Source: Polyangium mundeleinium (GTDB lineage Bacteria > Myxococcota_A > Polyangia > Polyangiales > Polyangiaceae). From it: a stretch of 64,000 bases of DNA. The position numbers and the translations under genes were made by a program. The stretch spans positions 8,278,501 through 8,342,500 of the forward strand of contig NZ_JAQNDO010000001.1 of NCBI RefSeq assembly GCF_028369105.1. The letters run 5' to 3'. Below are positions 99 through 56,535 of the stretch, piece after piece (position 1 is the first letter of the stretch; each line of letters opens with the position of its first letter). The notes beneath the pieces are model-generated. The model was not told the DNA's origin and did not search any database. It worked only from the letters and a program-made list of their open reading frames with translations.

Positions 99-886
99 TC
101 CTCGCCGCCTCGGCGCTCGGGCTCGTCGCCGCGGCCCTTGGCTGCGAGGGCGGAACGGAAGCGAGCGGCGGGACGACGGGCACGTTCGTCGACGACGCGG
201 GCGCCTTGACGTGCCCGGACGTACCCGGGACGCCGCCCATGATCGCGCTCGGCGGCTGGGACGGCCGGGCGTATTGCATCGACACGATCGAGGTGACGAA
301 CGCACATTATGCCGCGTGGCTGGAGACGTCTCCAGACACGAGCGGACAGCGCCCCGATTGCGCCGGGAATGCGACGTTCGTGCCTTCGTCAGGGGCGCCG
401 CCGAAGAACGACTATCCCGTGGTGAATGTCGATTTCTGCGACGCGGTCGCCTTCTGCGCGGCCTTCGGCAAGCGCCTCTGCGGGCGCATCACCGGCGGGC
501 CCACGCCTTATTTCGGGCACGACGACCCCGCGCAGAGCCAGTGGCACAGCGCCTGCACGCACGGCGGTGAGATGCCCTTCCCGTACGGCTCGACCTACGA
601 TCCGAATGCGTGCAATGGCGGCGATGCCAAATACGGAGCCCCCCTCGTCGCGTTCGTGCTCCCGGGCTGCGGGGGCGGTTCGGAGGGGCTCGTCGACATG
701 AGCGGCAACGTATGGGAATGGGAAGACGCGTGTATTCAGGGCGACGGCGGCGTCCCCGAATGCCGGCGGCGCGGCGGATCGTTTTCGAGCTCGGCGAAAT
801 ACATGAGCTGCGACGCGAGGAGCTCTCGGCCCATCGATGCGGCCGAGGACAACACGGGCTTCCGTTGCTGCACGGGGGGCTCGTGA
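83..886 (+). CDS. SUMF1-domain lipoprotein (FGE-sulfatase-like fold)
   Basis: 267 aa. The N-terminus MLRRLILAASALGLVAAALGC is a signal peptide with a lipobox (AALGC), so the protein is probably membrane-anchored outside the cytoplasm. The body is a SUMF1 domain: a GGWDGRAYCIDTIEVTNAHY opening, KRLCGRITGG, the hallmark SGNVWEWEDAC near residue 212, and GFRCC at the end. True formylglycine-generating enzymes carry two active-site cysteines after the GGS(F/W) segment; here that stretch reads GGSFSSSAKYMSC, so catalysis is doubtful and a binding or structural role is more likely. It follows a truncated paralogue and its TGA overlaps the next gene's GTG, indicating translational coupling. Confidence 0.85.
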   Translation: MLRRLILAASALGLVAAALGCEGGTEASGGTTGTFVDDAGALTCPDVPGTPPMIALGGWDGRAYCIDTIEVTNAHYAAWLETSPDTSGQRPDCAGNATFVPSSGAPPKNDYPVVNVDFCDAVAFCAAFGKRLCGRITGGPTPYFGHDDPAQSQWHSACTHGGEMPFPYGSTYDPNACNGGDAKYGAPLVAFVLPGCGGGSEGLVDMSGNVWEWEDACIQGDGGVPECRRRGGSFSSSAKYMSCDARSSRPIDAAEDNTGFRCCTGGS

Positions 887-42666: not shown

Positions 42667-45600
42667 TCAAGCCTCCGCCGCAAGGGCCATGTCCGACGCG
42701 GGCCTCTCGAAGAGAGCGCGGAGGACACGTCCAGTCGCAGTCGCGCGCCGCGCCACGACCTCGGGGGATCCTTCGGCCACGACACGACCACCGCCCTTGC
42801 CGCCCTCGGGCCCGAGCTCGATCACGTGATCTGCGGCCGCGATCACGGCGGGGTGATGCTCGATGATCAGGAGCGAGTGGCCACGCTGCACGAGGCGATC
42901 GAGGACGGCCACGAGGCGCGCGACATCGGAGAGGTGCAGGCCTGTGGTGGGCTCGTCGAGCACGTAGAGCGTGGGCTTGGCGCGCGTGCCGCTGCAGAGC
43001 TCGTCCGCCAGCTTGAGCCGTTGCGCCTCGCCGCCCGAGAGCGTGTGCGAGCCCTGGCCGAGCCGCAGATACCCCACACCGAGATCACACATCGTGGCGA
43101 GCGGCTCGCGGATCTTCGGGTGCGCCGCGAAGAGCTCGGCCGCCTCCTCGGCCGTACGGAGCAGGACATCGCCGATCGACATGCCGAGGTAACGTACGTC
43201 GAGCGTGGCTGGCTCGAAACGTGTTCCGCCGCAAGCCTCGCAGGTCGTCACGACGTCGGGCAAGAAAGACATCTCGTGCGAGATGACCCCCTGCCCTTCG
43301 CACGTCTCGCAACGACCGCCCTTCGCCGTGTTGAACGAGAACCGCGCGGGATCGTAGCCGCGCATCTTCGCGTCGGGCGTCGCGGCGAAGAGCTTGCGGA
43401 CCTCGTCCCATACGCCGAGGAAGGTGGCGGGGATGGATCGCGGCGTGCGGCCGATGGGGGATTGATCCACGGCGACGGCGCGCGCGAGCGAAGGCGGCAG
43501 GTGGAGCTTGTCGTGCGGACCGGGATCGGGTCCCGCGAGGCCGAGGGCGCGCCGCACCGCTGGATAAAGCACGTGCCGGACGAGCGTGCTCTTGCCGGAC
43601 CCGGAGACACCTGCGACGACGGTCATGCGTCCGAGCGGAACACGCAGCGCATCCACGCGCAGGTTGTGGGCGCGCGCGCCCTCGATCTCGAGGAACGCGT
43701 CGGCAGGGCCGAGTCGCACGCGGGCCGAGGCGAGCGCGCGCTCCCCGGAGAGGGCCTTCGCGGTGGGCGAGTTTGCCGTGCGTAGCACCTCCGAGGGCGT
43801 CCCCTGGGCCACGATGCGGCCGCCGCCGCGACCCCCGGAGGGACCGAGATCGATGAGGTAATCGGCGGCGCGGATCGTGTCCGCGTCGTGCTCGACCATG
43901 AGCACGGTGCTGCCCATGCCGGCGAGCTTGCGCAGGTTGTCGAGCAGCCGATGCGTGTCGCGCGGGTGCAAGCCGATCGTGGGCTCGTCGAGCACGTAGA
44001 GTGCGCCCGTGAGCCCGCTGCCGAGCTGCGCGGCGAGCCGGAGCCGCTGCATCTCGCCGCCGGAGAGCGTGGCGGCGCGGCGATCGAGCGCGAGGTAGCC
44101 GAGCCCGACCTCCTCGACGAACGCGAGCCGCCGCGCGAGCTCGCGGTGCGGCGCCTCTGCAATGAGCGCGCGCTCTCCGTCGAAGCGGAGCGCCTTCGCC
44201 CAGCGCACGGCCTCGGACACCGAGCGCGCGGTCGCCTCGTGGTATCGGTCTCCCGCGAGGCGCACCGAGCGCGGGACGGGCGCGAGGCGCGAACCGCCGC
44301 AGGCCGTGCACGGCTCGTTCGAGGCATCCGTGAGATCGGCGTCCTCGCTCCCGCCGAGCACGCCCGTCCCCTCGCAGGCCTCGCAGCGGCCTTGCTTGGT
44401 GTTGAACGAGAACCAGCGCGGATCGAGCTCGGGGACGCCCGCGCCGCAGCGAGGGCAGGTGCGCGTGGTGGAGAGGAGCTCTTCCTGGCCCCGCGAATTG
44501 ACGAGCTTGAGCGAGCCCCTGCCGAAGGTGAGCGCGCGGTCGAACGTGGCGCGATCGAGGCCGTCGAGTTTGCCCTCGTGCATCACGAGATCGATCGAGT
44601 GCTCGCGCCGTTTGTCGAGCCGCGGCGGATCATCTGTGCTCACCCGCGTGCCGTCGACGATCGCGTCCGTGATGCCCGCGCGCGCCGCCGCCGTGAAGAC
44701 GTCGAGGTACGTGCCCTTGCGCGCGACGACCGCGGGCGCGAGCAACGTGCGCGCGCCCCGCGTGGCGAGCAGCGCGCGATACACCTCGTCGGGCGCGCGC
44801 GCGGTGATGGGGACGTCGCACGTCGGGCAGTGCGGCTCGCCGACCTTGGCGAAGAGAAGCCGCAGGTAGTGGGCGATCTCCGTGACGGTCGCGACCGTCG
44901 AGTTCGACCCCGAGCGCGTCGTGCGCTGTTCGAGCGCGATTGCAGGCGGCACGCCCGTCACACGATCGACATCGGGACGCGGCATCGACGGGAGGAACTG
45001 ACGCGCGTACGGCGTGAGCGTCTCCAGAAAGCGCCGCTGCCCCTCGGCGAAGACGACATCGAACGCGAGCGTGCTCTTGCCCGAGCCGCTCGGCCCCGTG
45101 ACGACGACGATCTGGCCATGCGGGATCGACGTGCAGACCTCGGCGAGGTTGTGCTCGCGCGCGTGGACGATCTCGATCGCCGACGGCGCGGGCGGATAGG
45201 CCGACGATCCGCGGCGCGACGCATCTCCGTTCGCCTTTCCCTTTCGGCGTGACGACGAGGGCGACGACGAGGGTTTCGCGAGGTGCGTCGCGAGCGCGTG
45301 TCCCGTGCGCGTGTTCGTGCGCGCGACCTCCTCGGGTGTCCCCTCGGCGACGATCTGCCCGCCGTCGCTGCCCGCGCTGGGGCCAAGATCCACGACCCAG
45401 TCGGCGGCCGCGATCACGTCGAGATCGTGATCGACGACGATGACGCTCCCGCCGCCGCGCACCAGGTCCCGCAGGGCCTGGTTGAGCAGCAGCACCTCTT
45501 CTGCGTGCAGGCCCGCGCTCGGCTCGTCGAGCAGGAAGAGCGCGCCCGCCGTCCGTTCGCCGAGGGCGCGCGCGAGCTTGAGCCGCTGCGCCTCGCCGCC

Positions 45601-48051
45601 GGAGAGCGTCGAGAGGGGCTGGCCTAGCGCGAGGTACCCGAGGCCGAGGCGCGCAAGCGGCCCGAGCGCGCGCACGATCGCCGGCTCGCGCGCAAAGACC
45701 TCGAGCGCCTCGTCGATCGACAGCGCGAGCACGTCGGCCACGGAGCGGCCGTCGACCTTGACCTGGAGCACCTCGTCACGGAAACGTTTTCCTTGACAAA
45801 CTGGGCAGGTCAATGAAACGTCGGCGAGGAACTGCATCTCGATCGTCTCGGCGCCCTCCCCTGCGCACGACTCGCACCGACCGAGCGCCACGTTGAACGA
45901 GAAGTGCCCCGCCGTGAGCTGCCGCGCCCCGGCCTCGGGCTCCGCGGCGAACTTCTGGCGGATGCGGTTCCACGCGCTCGTGTACGTCGCGGGGTTGCCA
46001 CGCGAGGTGCGCCCGAGCGGCGCTTGATCGACGAGCGTGACGATCTTGATCCCGCTCGTGCCTTCAATCTTTTTGTGCGCGCCCGCGGGCTCGATGTCCT
46101 TGTAGCCGCGGGCCCGCGCGAGGGCGCGGTAGAGCACGTCCTCCACGAGCGTGCTCTTGCCCGAGCCACTCGCGCCCGTCACGCACACGACCTGCCCGAG
46201 CGGCATGCGCACGCTGACGTCCTTCAAATTATTCGCGCGCGCGCCCACGATGGAGATCGATCCGCGTGGTGCAGGCCGCTCGTCCGCCGAAGCAACACTC
46301 GCCGCGCCTCGCGCGAGGGCGCGCCCCGTTGGCAGATCGGCCCGCCGCGCGAGCTCCGTCGGCGCGCCGTCGAACACCACGCGCCCGCCTTGTTTGCCCG
46401 CGCCGGGCCCGAGCTCGACCACGCGATCCGAGGCCCGGATCACGAGCGGCTCGTGCTCGATGACGACCACCACGTTTCCGCGCGCCGCGAGCTCGCGCAT
46501 CGCCTCGATGAGCGGCGGCACGTCACTCGGATGCAGCCCCACCGTCGGCTCGTCGAGCACGAAGAGCGCGCCCGTCAGCGACGTCCCGAGCGCGCCCGTC
46601 AGCGTCACGCGTTGCGCCTCGCCGCCCGAGAGCGTGCGCGCTTGCCGATCGAGCGTCAGGTACCCGAGCCCCACGCGCTCCAGGTACGAGAGCCGCTGCG
46701 CGAGCTCCTTCCGCGCGATCTCACCCTGCCCCGTCGTCGCCTTCAACCGATCCAGGAGTGCGCGCGCCTCGCGCAATTCGAGCCCGTGCCAGCTCGCGAG
46801 ATCGAGCCCGCCCACGCGGTAGAGCAAGGACTCGGGCGACAGGCGCTTGCCGTCGCAGGTCGCGCATGGATCGTAGGAGCGGTACCGCGCGAGCAGCACG
46901 CGGATGTGCATCTTGTACGTGCGCGTCTCCAGCCACTTGAACCACGCGCGCACGCCCGGGAACTTGCCGCCGTGGAAGCTGCCCTCGCCGTCGAGCACCT
47001 GCGCGCGCTGCGCCTCGGTGAGCTCCTTCCACGGCACGTCGAGCGGGATTCCCTTCTTCTCGCAGAACTTCCGAAGAACCTTCCGCTCCCACGACGTGCT
47101 CGACCCCGTCCACGGCCGGATCGCGCCGCCTTCGAGGGTCTTGTCCTCGTCGGGGATGACCTTGCCCCAGTCGACGCCGATCGTCCGGCCAAACCCCCGG
47201 CATCCGGCGCACGCGCCGATCGGCGACTGGTAGGAGAACAGGCCCGGCCGCGCGGCGTCGAAGCTCCGCGCGCACGACGGGCAGGCGAGCCCACGCGGCA
47301 CGAGCACACGCCGACCCGCCCCATTCGCGCCCGACGCGCCCACGTACAAGGCCACGCCGCCCTCGGCCCGTTGCCACGCCTCCTCGATGGCCGAACCGAG
47401 GCGCCGCGCGTCGCGCGCGCCGATCTTCACGCGATCGACGATCACCTCGACCCCACCACCTGCGCCGAGCGCGTCGCTCGGGCCGACCTCGTCGATGTCG
47501 CGCACCTCGCCGCGCACGAGCAGACGCCGGTAGCCCGCTTCGAGCAGCGTCTCGCGCACGTCGAGCAGCTCCTCGGTGCCGGTCACGGGCACGCGGTACG
47601 TCACGAGCGCGGTCGCGCCGTCGTGGCTCTCGACGGCCTTCGACGCGGCCGTCACCGCGTCGACGCGCGTCGCCGGGATCTGGCACGTCGGGCACACGGG
47701 CGTCGCCTCGCGGGCGAACACGGCCGACAGGTACGGCTCGAGGTCGGCCATCGTGGCCACCGTGGAGCGCGAGCTCTTCACGGGCGCGCGGCGATCGACG
47801 GCCACGCCCGCGGCGACCGGATCGAGCTCGTCGATGGGCGGCCGTTCGAGCCGCTCCAGGAACTGCCGCGCGTAGGGGCTGAAGCTCTCGACGAAGCGCC
47901 GTTGTCCTTCCGAGTAGAGCGTATCGAGCGCGAGGGAGGACTTTCCGGCACCGGACACGCCCGTGAAGCAAACGAGCTGCCCGGGGACGAGCTCGAGGTC
48001 GATCCCCTGGAGGTTGTGGGTACGCGCGCCGCGGATGCGGATGGGTTGCAT
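42667..48051 (-). CDS. uvrA: tandem UvrA-type excinuclease ABC subunit A (double length)
   Basis: 1794 aa, almost twice the usual 940-aa UvrA. It contains four ABC ATPase modules: P-loops GVSGAGKSS (about 31), GASGSGKST (about 627), GPSGSGKST (about 990) and GVSGSGKST (about 1484). Each has its own LSGGE signature (RTLSGGEAQRV, STLSGGEAQRL, ATLSGGEMQRL, HTLSGGEAQRL), and paired CxxC zinc motifs (CPSC/CAGC, CESC/CPVC, CPRC/CEAC, CETC/CEAC). It is two head-to-tail UvrA copies with a Ser/Lys/Arg linker (about 930-955). UvrA finds DNA damage and loads UvrB. Such double UvrA proteins are known, e.g. in chlamydiae. The two halves may form an internal dimer. Confidence 0.95.
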   Translation of the reverse strand: MQPIRIRGARTHNLQGIDLELVPGQLVCFTGVSGAGKSSLALDTLYSEGQRRFVESFSPYARQFLERLERPPIDELDPVAAGVAVDRRAPVKSSRSTVATMADLEPYLSAVFAREATPVCPTCQIPATRVDAVTAASKAVESHDGATALVTYRVPVTGTEELLDVRETLLEAGYRRLLVRGEVRDIDEVGPSDALGAGGGVEVIVDRVKIGARDARRLGSAIEEAWQRAEGGVALYVGASGANGAGRRVLVPRGLACPSCARSFDAARPGLFSYQSPIGACAGCRGFGRTIGVDWGKVIPDEDKTLEGGAIRPWTGSSTSWERKVLRKFCEKKGIPLDVPWKELTEAQRAQVLDGEGSFHGGKFPGVRAWFKWLETRTYKMHIRVLLARYRSYDPCATCDGKRLSPESLLYRVGGLDLASWHGLELREARALLDRLKATTGQGEIARKELAQRLSYLERVGLGYLTLDRQARTLSGGEAQRVTLTGALGTSLTGALFVLDEPTVGLHPSDVPPLIEAMRELAARGNVVVVIEHEPLVIRASDRVVELGPGAGKQGGRVVFDGAPTELARRADLPTGRALARGAASVASADERPAPRGSISIVGARANNLKDVSVRMPLGQVVCVTGASGSGKSTLVEDVLYRALARARGYKDIEPAGAHKKIEGTSGIKIVTLVDQAPLGRTSRGNPATYTSAWNRIRQKFAAEPEAGARQLTAGHFSFNVALGRCESCAGEGAETIEMQFLADVSLTCPVCQGKRFRDEVLQVKVDGRSVADVLALSIDEALEVFAREPAIVRALGPLARLGLGYLALGQPLSTLSGGEAQRLKLARALGERTAGALFLLDEPSAGLHAEEVLLLNQALRDLVRGGGSVIVVDHDLDVIAAADWVVDLGPSAGSDGGQIVAEGTPEEVARTNTRTGHALATHLAKPSSSPSSSRRKGKANGDASRRGSSAYPPAPSAIEIVHAREHNLAEVCTSIPHGQIVVVTGPSGSGKSTLAFDVVFAEGQRRFLETLTPYARQFLPSMPRPDVDRVTGVPPAIALEQRTTRSGSNSTVATVTEIAHYLRLLFAKVGEPHCPTCDVPITARAPDEVYRALLATRGARTLLAPAVVARKGTYLDVFTAAARAGITDAIVDGTRVSTDDPPRLDKRREHSIDLVMHEGKLDGLDRATFDRALTFGRGSLKLVNSRGQEELLSTTRTCPRCGAGVPELDPRWFSFNTKQGRCEACEGTGVLGGSEDADLTDASNEPCTACGGSRLAPVPRSVRLAGDRYHEATARSVSEAVRWAKALRFDGERALIAEAPHRELARRLAFVEEVGLGYLALDRRAATLSGGEMQRLRLAAQLGSGLTGALYVLDEPTIGLHPRDTHRLLDNLRKLAGMGSTVLMVEHDADTIRAADYLIDLGPSGGRGGGRIVAQGTPSEVLRTANSPTAKALSGERALASARVRLGPADAFLEIEGARAHNLRVDALRVPLGRMTVVAGVSGSGKSTLVRHVLYPAVRRALGLAGPDPGPHDKLHLPPSLARAVAVDQSPIGRTPRSIPATFLGVWDEVRKLFAATPDAKMRGYDPARFSFNTAKGGRCETCEGQGVISHEMSFLPDVVTTCEACGGTRFEPATLDVRYLGMSIGDVLLRTAEEAAELFAAHPKIREPLATMCDLGVGYLRLGQGSHTLSGGEAQRLKLADELCSGTRAKPTLYVLDEPTTGLHLSDVARLVAVLDRLVQRGHSLLIIEHHPAVIAAADHVIELGPEGGKGGGRVVAEGSPEVVARRATATGRVLRALFERPASDMALAAEA

Positions 48052-49249: not shown

Positions 49250-50773
49250 ATGAAGATCACGTCGCGCCCCCGGGTCATCATTCGCCGTTGCCCCACCTAC
49301 GACGTCGAGCAGATCCGCCGGATCATTCAGGAGGGGCTCGAGGAGCTGGATCTCCGGCCGCACGGCCGCACGCTGGTCAAGCCGAACTGCGTGGCGTCGG
49401 GCCCGTCGTTCCCGCACGCGTACACGCGGCCTGAGTTCTTGGAGGGCGTGCTGCGCGCCTTGCAGGACCGGGACGACGGCCGCGTCCGGGAGCTCGCCCT
49501 GGGCGAGCGTTGCGGCATCACCCTCCCCACGCGCACGACGTTCGAGGGCGCGGAGTACTACCCGATGCTCAAGCGCACGGGCGTGAAGCACTACCACTTC
49601 GAGGAGGAGCCGCAGGTCGAGATCCGGCTCACCCACAAGGAGCGGCTGCGCGACTACGTCTTCACGCCCGAGCCCGTCGCGAAGGCCGACTTCTTCGTCA
49701 ACTGCCCCAAGTTCAAGAGCCACCCCTGGACCACCGTGACGTTCTCCATGAAGAACTACATCGGCATCCAGGACGATCGGCACCGCCTCATCGACCACGA
49801 CCACCGGCTCGACGAGAAGATCGCGGACCTGCAGTACATCGTTCAGCCGCAGTTCATCGCGATCGACGCGATCGTGGCCGGCGAAGGCCGGATGCTCACG
49901 CCCATCCCGCGCAAGCTCGGGCTCATCATCATGGGCAACTCGCAGGCCGCGTTCGACGCGCTCTGCTGCAACATCATCGGCGTCGATCCGTACACGGTCG
50001 ACCACCTCCGCCTCGCCTCCGAGCGTGGCTTCGGCTCGCTCGACCTCAGCTCGATGGACATCAGCGGCGACGTGACGCTCGAAGAAGCGCAGGCGATGGC
50101 CAAGGGCTTCAAGGTGGGCCTCGTGCGCGTCGAGAAGTACTTCGAGGGCTCGCACATCACGGCGTACGCCGGCCCGCCGCCGGAGCCGGAGCGCACGGAC
50201 TACTGCTGGGGCGGCTGTCCGGGCGCGCTCGAAGAGGCCATCGAGATCCTTCGTCTCTACGACGATCAGTGCGACGAGAAGATGCCGCGCATGCACATCG
50301 TCTTCGGGGCCTACGAAGGGAAGATCGACGCGAAGCCGGGCGAGCGTGTCGTGTTCATCGGCGACTGCGCGACGTGGTCGGGGGATCTCCACGGCCGCCT
50401 CGTGCGCGTCGAGAGCCTCTACAAAGACCGCGCGGAGAAGGACCCGTACCACGCCAAGCACGACGACATCTTCGCGAAGATGGTCCACGTGATCCGCAAG
50501 TTCGCGACCAGCGATCCGACCGAGCCGCTGCGCCTCGAAGGTTGCCCCGTCAGCGTGGCCGAGCAGGTGCTCACGCTCGTCGAGCTCGGCAAGACGAAGA
50601 ACCCGTACCTCTCGCCCTCCGAGGCCATACGCTTCAGCAAGGGCTACCTCGGTTGGCAAGGCAAGGCGCTCATGAAGCGCATCTCGGGCACGCCCTACCA
50701 GATCCACGGCCCCTGCGAGCGCGGGCAAGCCGCACCCGAGGTCTCTCCGCCTACGCTTCCGGACGCAGAATAA
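49250..50773 (+). CDS. DUF362-domain protein
   Basis: 507 aa from MKITSRPRVIIRRCPTYD. DUF362 pattern: LVKPNCVASGPSFPHAYT, RELALGERCGITLPTRTTF, DYVFTPEPVAKADFFVNCPK, SMKNYIGIQDDRHRLIDHDH, LQYIVQPQFIAIDAIVAGEG and GNSQAAFDALCCNIIGVDP. Most DUF362 proteins also carry a 4Fe-4S ferredoxin module (CxxCxxCxxxC); I do not see one. Instead there is CWGGCPGALEEAIEIL and a C-terminal domain (about 350-500). Likely a redox or cofactor-related enzyme, function unknown. It overlaps by 23 nt the stop of the convergent YceI-like gene. Confidence 0.85.
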   Translation: MKITSRPRVIIRRCPTYDVEQIRRIIQEGLEELDLRPHGRTLVKPNCVASGPSFPHAYTRPEFLEGVLRALQDRDDGRVRELALGERCGITLPTRTTFEGAEYYPMLKRTGVKHYHFEEEPQVEIRLTHKERLRDYVFTPEPVAKADFFVNCPKFKSHPWTTVTFSMKNYIGIQDDRHRLIDHDHRLDEKIADLQYIVQPQFIAIDAIVAGEGRMLTPIPRKLGLIIMGNSQAAFDALCCNIIGVDPYTVDHLRLASERGFGSLDLSSMDISGDVTLEEAQAMAKGFKVGLVRVEKYFEGSHITAYAGPPPEPERTDYCWGGCPGALEEAIEILRLYDDQCDEKMPRMHIVFGAYEGKIDAKPGERVVFIGDCATWSGDLHGRLVRVESLYKDRAEKDPYHAKHDDIFAKMVHVIRKFATSDPTEPLRLEGCPVSVAEQVLTLVELGKTKNPYLSPSEAIRFSKGYLGWQGKALMKRISGTPYQIHGPCERGQAAPEVSPPTLPDAE

Positions 50774-51296
50774 CGTCGAACAACACCTCGACGTCGTCGC
50801 GGACACGGAACGCGCCGAGTGGCCCCTTCACCTCGCGAAGGCCGAGCCGCTTCATCGACAGCTCCGCGCGCCCCGAGACACGCGTGCGATCCGCTTCCTC
50901 CGTCACGCGTAACGAGACCGGCAGCGAGATCCGGCCACTCGAAACCTCGACCGTCACCTCCGCGCGCTCCCGCGACGTGCCCTTCGCGCGGACGCGTACC
51001 TCCTTCGTCCCCGGGAACACCTCGTCGCGGATCTTCCGCTCGATGTCCGATCGATCCGAGGTCGAGAGTGCCGACGTGTCGACGCGCTCTCCATGAAGCG
51101 TCCCCACGACCTGCAGCGCGGCGACCGGCACGACGAGCTCCGCGGAAAACCCCTCGCCTTCGAGCGTCGCGCGGCCGCTGAACGCGGAGGCCGCGAGCTC
51201 GAGATCGTGCGCCAGCCGCGCCAGCATCCCACTGGCACGGGTGTGGACGAGAAGCTTGGAGGACGAACGATCGACGATCAGCTCGGATGCACTCAC
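50751..51296 (-). CDS. YceI-like domain protein
   Basis: 181 aa from a GTG whose bases overlap the upstream stop (GTGA); a second GTG at 51305 is possible. The fold is YceI-like: ASELIVDRSSSKLLVHTRAS, MLARLAHDLELAASAFSGRA (AHDL motif), STSDRSDIERKIRDEVFPG and LGLREVKGPLGAFRVRDDVE. YceI proteins bind isoprenoid-type lipids. It has no signal peptide, unlike periplasmic YceI, so it may sit in the cytoplasm. Last gene of the ABC-like operon. Confidence 0.83.
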   Translation of the reverse strand: MSASELIVDRSSSKLLVHTRASGMLARLAHDLELAASAFSGRATLEGEGFSAELVVPVAALQVVGTLHGERVDTSALSTSDRSDIERKIRDEVFPGTKEVRVRAKGTSRERAEVTVEVSSGRISLPVSLRVTEEADRTRVSGRAELSMKRLGLREVKGPLGAFRVRDDVEVLFDVILRPEA

Positions 51297-52027
51297 TCGC
51301 GACACCTCAGCGCGGCGACCACGGGAAGCAGCATCGCCATGAGCAGGAGAGCCACGGAGCTCTGCGGTTGGGACAGCCCGAGCGGGCCCTCACCGCCGAG
51401 CAAGCCGCGTCCGTGCGCGCGTGGCAGGAGGGCCGCAAAGAGGCCCGCGCCGCTGCCGAAGAGGAAGTCGAGGACGAGCGGCACGAGGCGACCCCGGCCC
51501 CGTTCGAGGAACGTCGCGCCAAACGCGAACCAGCCGGCATACGCCGCGCCGACGAGGGCGCCGATCCAGCCGCTCGTGAAGACATCCCGCGCGAACGGCG
51601 GCGCCGCGGCCGACTGCGCGGACGCGACCGCGACGATGGCGAGCAACGCGCCGCTCACGGCCGAAGCGAGCACGAGCGCCACGCCGATCCCGAGCGCGAC
51701 GTCGCGACGCGAAGCACCGTACCGCGCGAGGGGCCAGGCGGCATCACGCAGCTTCGCGCGATCACACGCGCGCGCGGCGAGCGCGAAGCAGAAGAGCGGG
51801 ACGACGAGGCGGAACGTCGCGGCGAGGGAACGATCGACCGCGCCTGCGGTGGTCACGCGGCGCTCGATGAGCCCGCCGGCGAACGCGAGCGCGAGCGCGA
51901 GGATCGTGGTGAGCACGACGCCACGCCCCGCGAGCCTGCGAGCGCCCATCGCGGCCCCGAGCGAAACACCCCCGAAGGCGCCCGCGCCACGAGGCAACGT
52001 GGCCTCTGGTCGATGCTGCGACGTCAT
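51293..52027 (-). CDS. membrane protein, ABC-permease-like (component B)
   Basis: 244 aa with about six TM helices: GVVLTTILALALAFAGGLI, LAATFRLVVPLFCFALAARA, VALGIGVALVLASAVSGALL, SGWIGALVGAAYAGWFAFGA, LVPLVLDFLFGSGAGLFAAL and VALLLMAMLLPVVAAL. Short loops and LARYGASRRDVALGI between helices recall ABC-2 permeases. The ATG overlaps the stop of the upstream ATPase-like gene (ATGA). It is probably one half of a membrane complex with the 257-aa protein two genes upstream. Confidence 0.8.
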   Translation of the reverse strand: MTSQHRPEATLPRGAGAFGGVSLGAAMGARRLAGRGVVLTTILALALAFAGGLIERRVTTAGAVDRSLAATFRLVVPLFCFALAARACDRAKLRDAAWPLARYGASRRDVALGIGVALVLASAVSGALLAIVAVASAQSAAAPPFARDVFTSGWIGALVGAAYAGWFAFGATFLERGRGRLVPLVLDFLFGSGAGLFAALLPRAHGRGLLGGEGPLGLSQPQSSVALLLMAMLLPVVAALRCRE

Positions 52028-53226
52028 GCTCCTCCCCGTGGCTCGCCTGAATCCCCCGGCTCGCCCGGCTTTTTGTCGTTCGTGACGGCAGGCGCTTCCG
52101 CAGCCGGCGCCTCGTTCGGCACGGCCGAAAGCTCCTGCGGCGCGACGGGCGCGAGCGCACCTGGCACCCGCGCGCTCCTCGCCGCCGGGAGCGCGACCGG
52201 CCGCCTCTGCGCGAGCCCCGCGGCGCGGCGGAACGTGAGCAACGCCTCGGCCGCAGCGCGCACCTGGACGATGCCGGGCGACGCCGGCGCGACGGCTTCG
52301 ATCACGACGCCGGCCTCCACCGCTGCGTCCGTGAGCGCGAGCGCGCAAGCGTCGAGGTCAGCCCCGGACAAACGCAGCTCCGCGGCGCGCGGATACGGCC
52401 CCTCGGCCTCGCTCCACGCGACGGCCCGCACCTCCGTTCGATCGGCGAGCAAACGAGCGAGCGCGCGCACCGGCGCTCGTTCGCTCGTATCGTCCGCGGG
52501 ACGCACCCACGCGACGAGCGCGGGCTCGCCGCCGGGCATGGGCTCCGCGGCGTCGGCCTCTCCGAGCACGAGCCCTTTGTGCAGCACGAGGACACGATCC
52601 CCGAGCGCGCGCGCATCCGCTGGCGAGGACGTCGTCACGACGACACACGCGCCGCCGAGCGCGAGCTCGCGAATCCGCTCGCGCACGAGGCCGAGCAGGT
52701 TGAGCGCGACGTCGGAGAGCGGCTCGTGCAGCGCAACGAGCAGCGGCGACGGCGTGGAGAGCGCGAGCGCGAGCTCCACCGCGCGCGCCTCGGCGAACGA
52801 GAGCGAGCGCGGCTCCCGGCGCGCGAGGTGACCGAGGCCGAAGGGATCGAGCACATCGCCGGCGCGCGTCGTCGACTCGCCACGCGCCCCCCGCGCGAGC
52901 GCGACGGACGCCTCGACCGTGCGCGCGTCCGGCAGCGCGGGCTCCGCGGCGAGCGCGCCGATCCGAGCCCGCAGCAAAGGCGAACGCGCGGGGGATTGTC
53001 CTTCGACCAGGACGCGCCCCTGCAAAGGAGCACGTGCTCCCGTCATCACCTCGGAGAGCGCGAGCGTCCCATCCTCGGGCGCACCCACGACCGCAAACAC
53101 CCCTGCGCCGAGCGCGAGGCTCACACCCGTCAGGCTCCCGCGTGAAGCGCCGCGCGGCGCTGCGGCGTCACGCGCATGGACGGCTTCGAGCAAGAGCCGC
53201 GGCGGCAACGGACGCGGCATCGTCAT
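52024..53226 (-). CDS. degenerate ABC-ATPase-like protein
   Basis: 400 aa from MTMPRPLPPRLLLEAVHARD. The N-terminal 240 residues align by eye to an ABC transporter ATPase: VSLALGAGVFAVVGAPEDGT at Walker A, SLSFAEARAVELALAL at the LSGGQ helix, LLVALHEPLS at Walker B, and VVTTSSPADARALGDRVLVL at the H-loop. The key residues have changed: Walker A Lys is absent (GAPEDGTL), the signature is LSFAE, Walker B Asp is His, and the H-loop His is Ser. ATP hydrolysis is unlikely. A C-terminal extension (about 270-400) is Ala/Pro-rich. Operon position between two permease-like genes, each overlapping by 4 nt. Confidence 0.82.
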   Translation of the reverse strand: MTMPRPLPPRLLLEAVHARDAAAPRGASRGSLTGVSLALGAGVFAVVGAPEDGTLALSEVMTGARAPLQGRVLVEGQSPARSPLLRARIGALAAEPALPDARTVEASVALARGARGESTTRAGDVLDPFGLGHLARREPRSLSFAEARAVELALALSTPSPLLVALHEPLSDVALNLLGLVRERIRELALGGACVVVTTSSPADARALGDRVLVLHKGLVLGEADAAEPMPGGEPALVAWVRPADDTSERAPVRALARLLADRTEVRAVAWSEAEGPYPRAAELRLSGADLDACALALTDAAVEAGVVIEAVAPASPGIVQVRAAAEALLTFRRAAGLAQRRPVALPAARSARVPGALAPVAPQELSAVPNEAPAAEAPAVTNDKKPGEPGDSGEPRGGA

Positions 53227-53996
53227 GTCCCTGCTCCGCGTCCAGCGTCGACGAGAAGCGAGAGGAGCGCGGAGAGCGCGCCCGGAACCGAGTACGAGCC
53301 GCGCCCCGCGAGCTCGGCGAGCATCCACGGAACGATCACGATCGCCGCAAGGAGAACCCTCCCCCGACGCCCGCCCATGCGCGCGGCGAACGTGGCGATC
53401 GTCCCGAGCGTGGCCCCTGCGATCACTGAGAACACGAACAGCCCGAGCGCGAACACGCTCCTGCGCATCGCCATCGCTCCGGAGCTCGACAGCGCCACCG
53501 TGACGAGCGCGAGCCCGACGAGCGGCAGACCGATCGCCCGCGTGATCTGCACCATCGACGCGATCCACCGCACCACGTGGAGGCTCTGCGCGTGCACGCC
53601 GTGCGTCGCCGCGAGCGCCTCGATCCCGGCCTCGCGATCCTCGGCCGTCCGATCGCTCGCTGCCGCGAGCGTCGTCGGGGCCGCGGCCAAGAGCGTGATC
53701 GACGCGGCCCCGAGCCCGACGAGCCCTTCGAGCGGCGCGCTCGTTCCTTCTGTCGCCCGCAGCACGATCGCGAGGATCGCGAACGACGCACCGAGCAGCG
53801 CGCCGCTGGCGAGCCCGATCCGCGAGAGCGTCGTGCGCCCGAGGCGCGCGCGGGACAACGCCACCGCGGCGAACAAACGCCTCCTGCGACGCCCACGAGG
53901 CGGCCCAGGAGGACGGCGCGCGGCAGGCGCACCGGGGAGGCTCGGGGGAGTCGATGTCGTCACGATGGTTACGAGGGTGAACGCGAGGATCCGCAT
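53223..53996 (-). CDS. membrane protein, ABC-permease-like (component A)
   Basis: 257 aa from MRILAFTLVTIVTTST. A basic Arg-rich stretch (ARRPPGPPRGRRRRRL) near residue 30 is followed by about five TM helices: ASGALLGASFAILAIVLRA, GLGAASITLLAAAPTTLA, GLPLVGLALVTVALSS, SVFALGLFVFSVIAGATLG and GRVLLAAIVIVPWMLAELAG. The segment REAGIEALAATHGVHAQSLH between helices 2 and 3 resembles an ABC-2 coupling loop. First gene of the operon and divergent from the vWA lipoprotein gene by 40 bases. The start could lie later in the Thr-rich stretch. Confidence 0.75.
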   Translation of the reverse strand: MRILAFTLVTIVTTSTPPSLPGAPAARRPPGPPRGRRRRRLFAAVALSRARLGRTTLSRIGLASGALLGASFAILAIVLRATEGTSAPLEGLVGLGAASITLLAAAPTTLAAASDRTAEDREAGIEALAATHGVHAQSLHVVRWIASMVQITRAIGLPLVGLALVTVALSSSGAMAMRRSVFALGLFVFSVIAGATLGTIATFAARMGGRRGRVLLAAIVIVPWMLAELAGRGSYSVPGALSALLSLLVDAGRGAGT

Positions 53997-54036
53997 CCCC
54001 GCTGCCCTTTCGCGCGGGCGGCGGCAAGGATATCCT

Positions 54037-56535
54037 GTGCGCAGTCCTGTGCTTGACCTGAAAATCCGCCGGGGGCGATGGGCTTCTGTTCTCGGGCTCT
54101 TGCTAGCGGGGGGTGCGCTCGGCGTCGCCTGCACGCCGGACTCCGACATCGTTCGACCCACGAGCACTTCCAGCAGCGGCACAGGTGGCGCGGGCGGTGA
54201 TGCCGGCGCGGGCGGTGATGCCGGCGCCTCCTCCAGCACGAGCTCGTCGAGCAGCTCGTCGTCGGCCTCGTCCAGCGGGAGCGGCGGCACAGGCGGCGTC
54301 GGTGGTGCCGGCGGCCAGGGAGGCGCAGGCGGCGTCGGCGGTTCCGGCGGCGCGGGCGGAAACCCCGTGAGCCCCTGCCCGCCCGACGCGGATTTCGACG
54401 GCATCTCGGACGACGTCGAGGGCAAGGATCAAGGCGTCGACACCGACGGCGACGGCACGCCCGACTACCTCGACACGGACAGCGACAACGACTCGCTCCC
54501 CGACGCGTTCGAAGGCCAGACGGCCGCGGTTGGCTGTGCGCACCCGCAAAACTCCGACGGCACCGGGCCGCCCGACTTCCGCGACACGGACAGCGACGAC
54601 AACGGCCTACCCGACGCGCTCGAGATCTACCCCGACCAGACGCCCTACGATCCGCAGAAACCCGGGCCAAACCCCGCGGACACCGACGGCGACGGCGTCC
54701 CCGACTACGCCGATCCCGACAACGACGACGACTCGTTGCCGGACACCGTCGAGCTCACGATGGGCGTCGCCGTCAACACGGACGGCGACGCGCTCCCCGA
54801 TCTGTGCGACGCCGACAGCGACAACGACACGCTCGGCGACGCGTTCGAAGGGTTCGCCGATCCCGACGGCGACGGCGTGCCCGCGTTCCGCGATGCCGAC
54901 AGCGACGGCGACGGGCTCTCCGACGCCTGCGAGGCCGGGCCGCTGCACATGGTCGCGGATCCGCCGCCCGACGCCGACAGCGACGGCAAGTACGACTTCC
55001 TCGATCTCGACGCCGACGCCGACGGCATCCTCGACAAGGACGAAGACGTCAATCTCAACTGCTTCCTCGACACGCTCGAGACCGATCGCACGAAGGCCGA
55101 CACGGACGGCGACGGCACCTCCGATCTCATCGAGCGCGAGCTCGGCTCGAACCCGCGGGATCCCTTCGTCACGCCCGGCACGCTCGGCAAGTTCTACTTC
55201 GTGTTGCCCTACCTCGGCGCGCCCTCGCCGGCCGAGAACATCGTTCCGCTTCGTACGAACTTGAACCAGGGCGACGTCGCCTTCCTCGTCGACACGACCG
55301 CGACGATGAGCGGCGAGATCCAGAACCTCAAGAGCAACCTCAGCGCGATCATCACGAAGCTGAAGGCGTCGATCCCCGATCTCGCCGTCGGCATCGCTGG
55401 CTTCGACGACTTCCCGACGGGCACGTACGGCACCACGGGCGTCGATCAACCGTTCTACGTCGCGGGCAGCACGGGCTACGTGAGCACCGCCCTCGCGGAC
55501 AACCTCGCCGCGGTCCTCTCGCTCAACGTGCACGACGGCGGCGACAACCCGGAGTCGCACATCGCCGCGATGCAACGTGCGCTCACGGACGCCTTCCTCC
55601 TCTGGCCCGGCGGTCAGCTCACGCCGGCGGGCGCGCCCGCCGGCCGTTATGGCTCGTTACGCTTCCGCGACGGCGCGCTGCCGATCCTCGTGCCGATCAC
55701 CGACGCTCCGTTCCACAACGGCCGGCGCGCCCTCAACGCGGCCAACCTCCACGACGCTTACGACTTCAACGGCCAGGCCCCCTTCCCCACGCCCACGGTC
55801 GACACGCTCATCGCCGCGATGAAGCAGCGCGGCGCGCGGCTCATCGGCATCTCCTCGTCGAACGGCGTCCGCTCGGGCGGCGATCCGTACGAGGACCTCG
55901 CGTACATCGCCGATCAGACGAGCTCGCTCGTCCCGCCCTCCGCGTTCGGCGGCATGCAGTGCGGCACGGGCCCGAACGGCGCGTTCCTCGTCCCCGACGG
56001 ACCCGCGACCTCGGACAACCCCGGCGGCACCTGCCGCCTCATCTTCGACATCAGCACCGACGGCACCGGGCTCAACGACGTCACGCTCGACAACGGCATC
56101 AAGGCCCTCCTCAAATCGATCCGCTTCGACATCCGCTCCCTCGCCACCGCGAGCCTCGCCGATCCCATCGACGCGGTGGACACGTTCGTCGCGCAAATCT
56201 CGGTCAACGCGTCGGGCGGCGAGGACGCGGCCGAGCCGGGCGTCCCGTGCTTCTCCCTGAACGCGGTCCAGCAGCTCAAGGACGTCTGGTCGGGCGCGAA
56301 GGGCCTCGTCAAGGCGCAGGACGGCGTGAACGAGACCGCCCTCGCGATCGTTCCTGGTCAAAAGGTCTGCTTCAAGATCGTGCCCATCCCGAACACCACG
56401 ATCCCGCAAAATCAGACCGCGCAGATCTTCAAGGCCACGCTCACGGTCAAGGCGCAGAACGGCATCGCGCCCTCGGAGCTCCTGCTCGGCGCGCCCAAGG
56501 AAATCCTCTTCCTCGTCCCGCCCGCGCCGCAGTGA
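54037..56535 (+). CDS. vWA-domain lipoprotein with thrombospondin type 3 repeats
   Basis: 832 aa from GTG 54037, with AAGGA 6 nt upstream; signal ASVLGLLLAGGALGVAC. A Gly/Ala and Ser-run linker (SSSSSSSSASSSGSGG) follows, and then calcium-binding TSP3-type repeats (DTDGDGTPDYLDTDSDNDSL, DADSDGDGLSDACEAG). A von Willebrand A-like domain starts with VAFLVDTTATMSGEIQNLKS (metal-binding DTTATM). It then carries PILVPITDAPFHNG and GARLIGISSSNGVRSGGDPY. Large surface adhesin-like protein, held by lipid. Expression divergent from the ABC-like operon. Confidence 0.9.
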   Translation: MRSPVLDLKIRRGRWASVLGLLLAGGALGVACTPDSDIVRPTSTSSSGTGGAGGDAGAGGDAGASSSTSSSSSSSSASSSGSGGTGGVGGAGGQGGAGGVGGSGGAGGNPVSPCPPDADFDGISDDVEGKDQGVDTDGDGTPDYLDTDSDNDSLPDAFEGQTAAVGCAHPQNSDGTGPPDFRDTDSDDNGLPDALEIYPDQTPYDPQKPGPNPADTDGDGVPDYADPDNDDDSLPDTVELTMGVAVNTDGDALPDLCDADSDNDTLGDAFEGFADPDGDGVPAFRDADSDGDGLSDACEAGPLHMVADPPPDADSDGKYDFLDLDADADGILDKDEDVNLNCFLDTLETDRTKADTDGDGTSDLIERELGSNPRDPFVTPGTLGKFYFVLPYLGAPSPAENIVPLRTNLNQGDVAFLVDTTATMSGEIQNLKSNLSAIITKLKASIPDLAVGIAGFDDFPTGTYGTTGVDQPFYVAGSTGYVSTALADNLAAVLSLNVHDGGDNPESHIAAMQRALTDAFLLWPGGQLTPAGAPAGRYGSLRFRDGALPILVPITDAPFHNGRRALNAANLHDAYDFNGQAPFPTPTVDTLIAAMKQRGARLIGISSSNGVRSGGDPYEDLAYIADQTSSLVPPSAFGGMQCGTGPNGAFLVPDGPATSDNPGGTCRLIFDISTDGTGLNDVTLDNGIKALLKSIRFDIRSLATASLADPIDAVDTFVAQISVNASGGEDAAEPGVPCFSLNAVQQLKDVWSGAKGLVKAQDGVNETALAIVPGQKVCFKIVPIPNTTIPQNQTAQIFKATLTVKAQNGIAPSELLLGAPKEILFLVPPAPQ

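Follow-up and report, generated by a model that had tools for sequence, protein, structure and literature searches.

In ATP-binding cassette (ABC) transporters, each ATP site pairs the Walker A motif of one nucleotide-binding domain (NBD) with the signature motif of the other. Among the closest described systems, NosF of the type V complex NosDFY is an active ATPase and NosY is a homodimer, and the DrrA/GldA-type ABC-2 exporters have intact ATP sites. What defines ABC transporters is transport driven by ATP, and the degenerate members covered by the excerpted text of PMC7756269 (TM287/288, TmrAB and ABCC1, each with one degenerate site) keep substituted catalytic motifs under selection at one altered site, which still holds ATP, beside one working site (PMC7756269). 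For LmrA-MD, which is LmrA without its NBD, ion-coupled transport is reported, as is one LmrA ion current that was not seen without the NBD (PMC6155054). Here, we analyze a stretch of 64,000 nucleotides from the 13.25-Mb genome of Polyangium mundeleinium (the window; positions 8,278,501 to 8,342,500 of contig NZ_JAQNDO010000001.1), whose minus strand carries, at 50751-53996, four head-to-tail genes, which we confirm. They encode a transmembrane (TM) protein (TM-A), an ABC-like protein that has lost its catalytic motifs (the pseudo-NBD), a second membrane protein (TM-B), and a YceI-like protein.

From sequence comparisons and structure models, we favor, at a probability of about 0.6, a reading in which the first three products, hereafter the dead cassette, would make up a type V (NosFY-like) complex that descends from an ATP-driven exporter, lost its ATPase site once, and works ATP independently or as a regulator. 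We hold it nearly as probable that this is a natural ABC family without a working ATP site, widespread in one bacterial family, whose motor was switched off once and which was kept for transport, channel, or sensor functions that need no ATP, the old pocket having acquired a newly conserved role. The locus resembles NosFY in an NBD with a C-terminal domain and in the membrane fold, but its two TM genes differ from each other and its NBD is dead. It differs from the one-degenerate-site transporters, as the excerpts of PMC7756269 present them, in that neither a working second site nor an ATP-holding degenerate one seems possible. In LmrA-MD there is a precedent for activity of ABC membrane domains in the absence of ATP (PMC6155054), but this protein is an engineered truncation of another transporter type and not a natural family. 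No description of this operon, or of an ABC family lacking every ATP site, was found among the open-access papers listed by literature searches; the apparent novelty would lie in a type V ABC layout that has lost the chemistry by which it is defined.

The pseudo-NBD has the fold of an ABC ATPase. ABC_tran, the sole Pfam family of the protein, matched it above the cut-off (E 2.2e-7), and its sequence matches among solved chains are ABC ATPases; its NCBIfam matches (the best 25 of 67) all fell far below their cut-offs. AlphaFold2, run without templates, returned a confident ABC fold (predicted local distance difference test [pLDDT] score, 85.7), for which Foldseek retrieved ABC ATPases at E values down to 1.7e-16 and VIA did so at Z scores up to 23.4. 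Against NosF, VIA aligned 292 residues, including the C-terminal domain, at a Z score of 22.9 and a root mean square deviation of 4.7. The earlier sequence-only reading of this DNA had called the 400-residue product ABC-ATPase shaped and had named failure to fold like an ABC ATPase as an outcome that would count against it; the model gave the ABC fold. Within that fold, the hallmarks of the enzyme (the Walker A Lys, the Walker B Asp, LSGGQ, and the H-loop His) are all absent, just as that reading had claimed from the motifs. The best solved-chain alignment sets GPSGCGKTT against GAPEDGTLA, LSGGQ against LSFAE, LLDEP against ALHEP, and, at the H-loop, TH against TS; both this alignment and that of the family show that the window protein has Ala instead of the Q-loop Gln. 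An automatic label such as "ABC transporter ATP-binding protein" would mislead for these genes.

As a control, we examined other ABC domains of the same genome, using 76 stretches that cover the 83 places scoring above the window protein in an ABC_tran search (13 weaker places were left out). These yielded 90 domain matches, counting the window protein, and some domains occur twice among them where stretches overlap. The Walker A Lys was present in 84 of the 88 domains having a residue at that position. The four domains without it were the window protein and three others that retain LSGGNQQ and that we take to be second domains of RbsA-type tandem importers; one of these (L203) has both the Lys and the Asp replaced, and its aligned part does not include the H-loop. 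Replacement of the Lys, Asp, His, and signature Gly together was confined to the window protein.

We then asked how far the dead cassette extends, searching 183 genomes of the order and 377 genomes of the phylum Myxococcota. Among the former, the TM-B profile matched 86 genomes of the window's own family (f1, Polyangiaceae) and two of family f5; a marginal match in G026 is to a permease of an intact cassette described below. Outside the order, the single match (G347) was weak and partial (E 4.5e-5). The nearest named relatives of the pseudo-NBD are four Polyangium records at 87 to 92% identity and, further off, Sorangium cellulosum at 50%. The sequence-only reading had proposed checking whether the four-gene order is conserved in other Polyangiales. 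As traced by TM-B, the cassette is present in 86 own-family and two f5 genomes, and the YceI-like gene adjoins it in 22 of the 86. The order TM-A/NBD/TM-B was found in 55 of 55 loci having all three genes, from a set of 60 in which the other five (L048, L058, L071, L075, and L089, at contig ends) lack one gene, and in 15 of 19 further loci. Counts of junctions at which the downstream start lies at -4 (53/55 and 44/55) are not taken as evidence, since the start nearest -4 was chosen and chance overlaps are not rare in high-GC DNA.

Conservation of the altered site was followed in an alignment of 75 pseudo-NBDs that includes the window protein and six sequences of one genus. Three ordinary ABC proteins had been dropped beforehand (the second match of L126 and both matches of L117); L116, L118, and L125 had no NBD profile match and stand outside the 75, and the partial L048 was left out of alignment A1. 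In L116, a degenerate NBD can be seen by eye between TM-A and TM-B. The sequence-only reading could have been overturned by orthologues that keep the Walker A Lys, yet none of the 75 sequences has it, and none has the H-loop His; with the ABC fold present, its proposal of a membrane complex that is not ATP driven is upheld as an inference. The Walker B Glu168 persists in 72 of 75 sequences and the Walker B Pro in 73 of 73. In place of the P-loop stands a consensus, GxPxDGT, with Asp52 in 62, Gly53 in 63, and Thr in 40 of the 75; the motif register is uncertain for the weakest rows (L115 and L120-L122). Ranked by conservation within the protein, the former Walker A lies at the 80th percentile, the signature at the 74th, Walker B at the 85th, and the H-loop at the 74th; the Q-loop segment (60th) is slightly better conserved than most of the protein, and the D-loop (22nd) is not. 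Even so altered, 51 of 59 family members matched ABC_tran at E <= 1.

Across six genomes of the genus, the mean pairwise ratio of nonsynonymous to synonymous substitution rates (dN/dS) was 0.255 for TM-A, 0.243 for the pseudo-NBD, 0.237 for TM-B, and 0.291 for the YceI-like gene, with 0.133 for the neighboring SmpB gene (named by eye) and 0.217 for the DUF362 gene. Within the pseudo-NBD, the values were 0.175 for the ABC domain, 0.254 for the C-terminal domain, and 0.445 for the tail. The degenerate ATPase site is a conserved state under purifying selection. A pseudogene or a sequencing error had been considered as well and was ruled out by the dN/dS values and by the replacement motif conserved in 75 sequences.

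The TM-B model (pLDDT, 95.8; predicted template modeling score, 0.91) contains six membrane helices by our reading. VIA ranked NosY at the top (Z 17.6; 218 residues aligned, 3.1 Å), followed by ABCG and ABCA membrane domains (ABCG1 and ABCG2 at Z of about 14 to 17); because of this ranking, we assign the modeled TM-B fold to the type V (NosY-type, ABC-2) permeases. Six of its residues (Pro77, Gly104, Tyr163, Asp187, Leu209, and Leu227) are invariant in 58 of 58 sequences. Sequence searches were less informative: the window's TM-A had no Pfam family at E <= 10, any one Pfam family matched at most two of 58 TM-B members (E of about 0.009) and at most one of 57 TM-A members (E of about 0.008), and profile searches of PDB sequences returned no matches for the YceI-like protein, one for TM-B, and two for TM-A, the best at E 0.026. 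A profile comparison of TM-A with TM-B revealed no clear homology (17%, P 0.0015).

A relative with an intact ATP site exists in neighboring families. In G026, which belongs to a different family of the order, an intact NBD gene lies between two permease genes, in the same order as in the dead cassette (L117 5283-7992), and we refer to this arrangement as the live cassette. Live TM-A relatives occur in 29 of the 183 order genomes, none of them in the own family or f5, and the live TM-A profile matched 81 of the 377 phylum genomes, again none in the own family; G026 is on both the dead-TM-B and the live-TM-A lists solely through its live TM-B. Of 21 live loci, 20 show the three-gene order and the remaining one is cut by a contig end; all 21 NBDs have the Walker A Lys and the H-loop His, with an invariant DEP. 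In 20 of 20 further live loci, a choice among the live-TM-A profile matches (L251-L270, e.g., L258 2860-6435) that spans several phylum families (six loci belong to f3, a family within the window's order), the operon reads NBD1-TMA-NBD2-TMB, with two different NBDs each and all motifs intact in 40 of 40. The DrrA and GldA models score best for the live NBD (190 and 173 bits, under their cut-offs), and the live permeases, permease A among them, match ABC2_membrane families just below the cut-off, whereas no Pfam family is matched consistently by the TM proteins of the dead cassette. Directly after live TM-B lies a conserved gene (L117 7961-8656, L231 7263-7919, and L243 7082-7768); the L117 frame is common to 15 other live loci, and one such gene has a SpoIIE-phosphatase-like match below the cut-off. 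GldA/GldF/GldG-like genes, scoring under the curated Gld cut-offs, follow directly downstream of the G026 live cassette (L117 8845-12345).

The dead and live cassettes share their gene order, a full-length TM-A profile match (probability, 97.2%; E 3.3e-11; 221 columns), and NBDs that rank as closest relatives: the dead-NBD profile places the 21 live NBDs (111 to 130 bits) above 83 ABC domain sequences of the window genome (best, 95.4). They differ in that the Walker A, Walker B, and H-loop motifs of the live form are intact and in that a second NBD gene is present in 20 of its loci. Crossed TM-A/TM-B profile pairs of dead and live did not match (5.8% and 0.9% probability), and in the colinear TM-B alignment, the invariant Asp187 falls on an invariant Glu of live TM-B. 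In G017, G018, G173, and G176, genomes outside its own family, the matches listed for the pseudo-NBD are live-cassette NBDs. The dead NBDs form one clade in a tree of ABC domains (58/58, support 1.0), in line with a single loss. Profiles, gene order, and distribution suggest loss of the ATPase, on one occasion, from an ATP-driven type V exporter in the lineage to Polyangiaceae, with the live cassette as the probable ancestral form.

Several observations weigh against this reading. The NBD tree puts the dead clade beside other ABC branches, presumably ABC-F-like, with support of 0.33 to 0.84, and not as sister to the live NBDs. In G022, which has a live cassette, the listed matches of the pseudo-NBD are other ABC proteins. 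The profile ranking somewhat favors the live NBDs, which entered as pieces of up to 235 residues against often-shorter domain matches, and the NBD-to-live-NBD profile match (E 2.6e-34, 277 columns) was made without a control ABC family. The match between dead and live TM-B profiles is weak (28.5%, P 6e-4, 223 columns), and Foldseek gave no TM-B match at E <= 0.001, the best being NosY (probability, 1.00; E 0.032). The Walker B Asp is kept in 10 of the 75 pseudo-NBDs, and at least 20 own-family genomes have no TM-B match.

How might such a complex operate? In the mechanism we propose, TM-A and TM-B would form a heterodimer on which the pseudo-NBD would still dock, as a clamp or scaffold, without ATP binding or hydrolysis. 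The complex could then conduct or facilitate transport independently of ATP, powered by the gradient of the substrate itself or by coupling to ions, or it could be a regulator; such roles appear likely because the membrane subunits remain under selection. That selection also bears on the notion of a decaying relic heading to a pseudogene, for which one could cite the lost catalytic motifs, the own-family genomes without TM-B, and the fast-evolving tail; dN/dS values of 0.24 to 0.29, the presence in 86 own-family and two f5 genomes, and the retained order and replacement motif largely contradict it already, and we regard it as very improbable. The pseudo-NBD might instead be the inactive half of an ABC heterodimer powered by an intact NBD encoded elsewhere. 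Transporters with one degenerate site are well known, on the evidence of the excerpts of PMC7756269, and the related live operon has two different NBDs in all 20 fetched loci, but the cassette contains a single NBD gene alongside its two TM genes, and a partner NBD could hardly rescue activity because the Walker A and signature motifs, both halves of the composite site, are gone, so that both composite sites would be defective. We consider this arrangement improbable.

A rebuilt pocket is another alternative, in which the pseudo-NBD would bind a different ligand or a cation through Asp52, Glu146, and Glu168 and act as a sensor controlling the membrane part, with the whole complex serving as a ligand-gated channel or receptor. 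In their altered form, the segments that once were Walker A, signature, Walker B, and H-loop still rank among the better-conserved parts of the protein, and Glu146 (59/75) and Ser201 (60/75) recur in the family alignment alongside Asp52 and Glu168. These residues may merely hold the fold or an NBD-NBD contact, however, and Asp52 is missing in 13 of the 75 sequences; we rate a rebuilt pocket of this kind as rather unlikely. The ATP-independent type V complex remains our preferred reading. A widespread dead family and, in neighboring families, a live relative with the same layout together amount to a natural experiment, raising the questions of what ABC membrane subunits do without ATP and what use is made of an ABC fold that is no longer an enzyme, and the live/dead pairing makes the idea directly testable by chimeras.

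The sequence-only reading had also made the YceI-like protein a lipid-binding partner within the complex, and as a core feature this is not supported. Of the 86 own-family cassette genomes, 22 have the gene downstream of TM-B, codirectional with it and no more than about 0.7 kb away, as judged by hand from coordinates, and in the other 64 the two are not adjacent; a profile match occurs somewhere in 65 of the 86, with none at E <= 1e-6 in 21, and seven own-family genomes have the gene without the cassette. In the order as a whole, the profile matched 132 of 183 genomes, 65 of them without the dead cassette, although the low-scoring matches are probably YceI proteins in general. Because it adjoins TM-B in a minority of genomes and is matched widely without the cassette, the YceI-like protein is an optional companion, in some lineages only. 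Its YceI membership would rest on transitivity, since the window protein scored 13.8 bits against a Pfam YceI cut-off of 23.7 (E 0.08) and 7 of 10 distant matches of its family profile passed that cut-off. YceI proteins bind isoprenoids. A four-part assembly, with the YceI-like protein passing a polyisoprenoid or another lipid to the membrane subunits, could draw on those seven distant matches, on the overlap with TM-B in the window, and on the close, codirectional placement in 22 genomes; the gene is nevertheless separate from TM-B in most cassette genomes and is found without the cassette, and a DUF362 gene lies in the same stretch in 21 of the 22 fetched loci with a YceI-like gene and also in L053, away from the cassette. 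We judge such a lipid relay to be unlikely. In the window, the DUF362 gene (49250-50773, plus strand) is convergent with the YceI-like gene and overlaps its 3' end, and the pair stays joined in L053, where the cassette lies elsewhere.

The coordinates are collected in Table 1. The sequence-only reading had the four genes joined by 4-nucleotide overlaps; this is so for two of the three junctions, TM-A/pseudo-NBD and pseudo-NBD/TM-B, but TM-B and the YceI-like gene overlap by 13 nucleotides.

Table 1. Features of the dead cassette and its motifs in window coordinates
Feature	Position	Strand	Description
TM-A	53223..53996	-	Polytopic membrane subunit, 257 aa, ABC-2-like; start codon uncertain
Pseudo-NBD	52024..53226	-	400 aa; ABC-ATPase fold, NosF-like C-terminal domain, catalytic motifs lost
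Walker A position	53059..53085	-	GAPEDGTLA, residues 48-56; Lys replaced by Thr54
Signature position	52783..52803	-	LSFAEAR, residues 142-148; LSFAE where LSGGQ is expected
Walker B position	52720..52740	-	LVALHEP, residues 163-169; Asp replaced by His167, Glu168 retained
H-loop position	52624..52635	-	TTSS, residues 198-201; His replaced by Ser200
Pseudo-NBD tail	residues about 336-400		Ala/Pro-rich
TM-B	51293..52027	-	244 aa; NosY/ABCG-type (type V) permease subunit, as modeled
YceI-like protein	50751..51305	-	184 aa; no signal peptide by eye; optional companion

The flanks of the dead cassette vary by subclade, comprising DUF362 and SmpB (by eye), an FtsX/MacB-core permease set, or a divergent protein of ~800 aa, and therefore no function follows from the neighborhood. 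The FtsX/MacB-core permease (cluster 9, 18 loci; L059 4637-6538) lies near the dead cassette in one subclade, has no ABC ATPase domain, and is accompanied by a response regulator and a Ser/Thr kinase. In another subclade, a protein of 730 to 1008 aa (cluster 10, 18 loci; L128 9227-11578) is encoded upstream of TM-A, with its gene on the strand opposite to TM-A in 17 of the 18; two members have a weak AAA-lid match below the cut-off, and a third has no Pfam match. In the window, the gene at 54000-56535 (plus strand, within the open frame 53176-56535) is divergent from the operon, and its product has a Ser/Gly-rich, lipoprotein-like start and repeated Asp-rich motifs that by eye are thrombospondin type 3-like. 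Another ABC-profile match lies at about 45225-45729 of the window, for which UvrA is a guess only.

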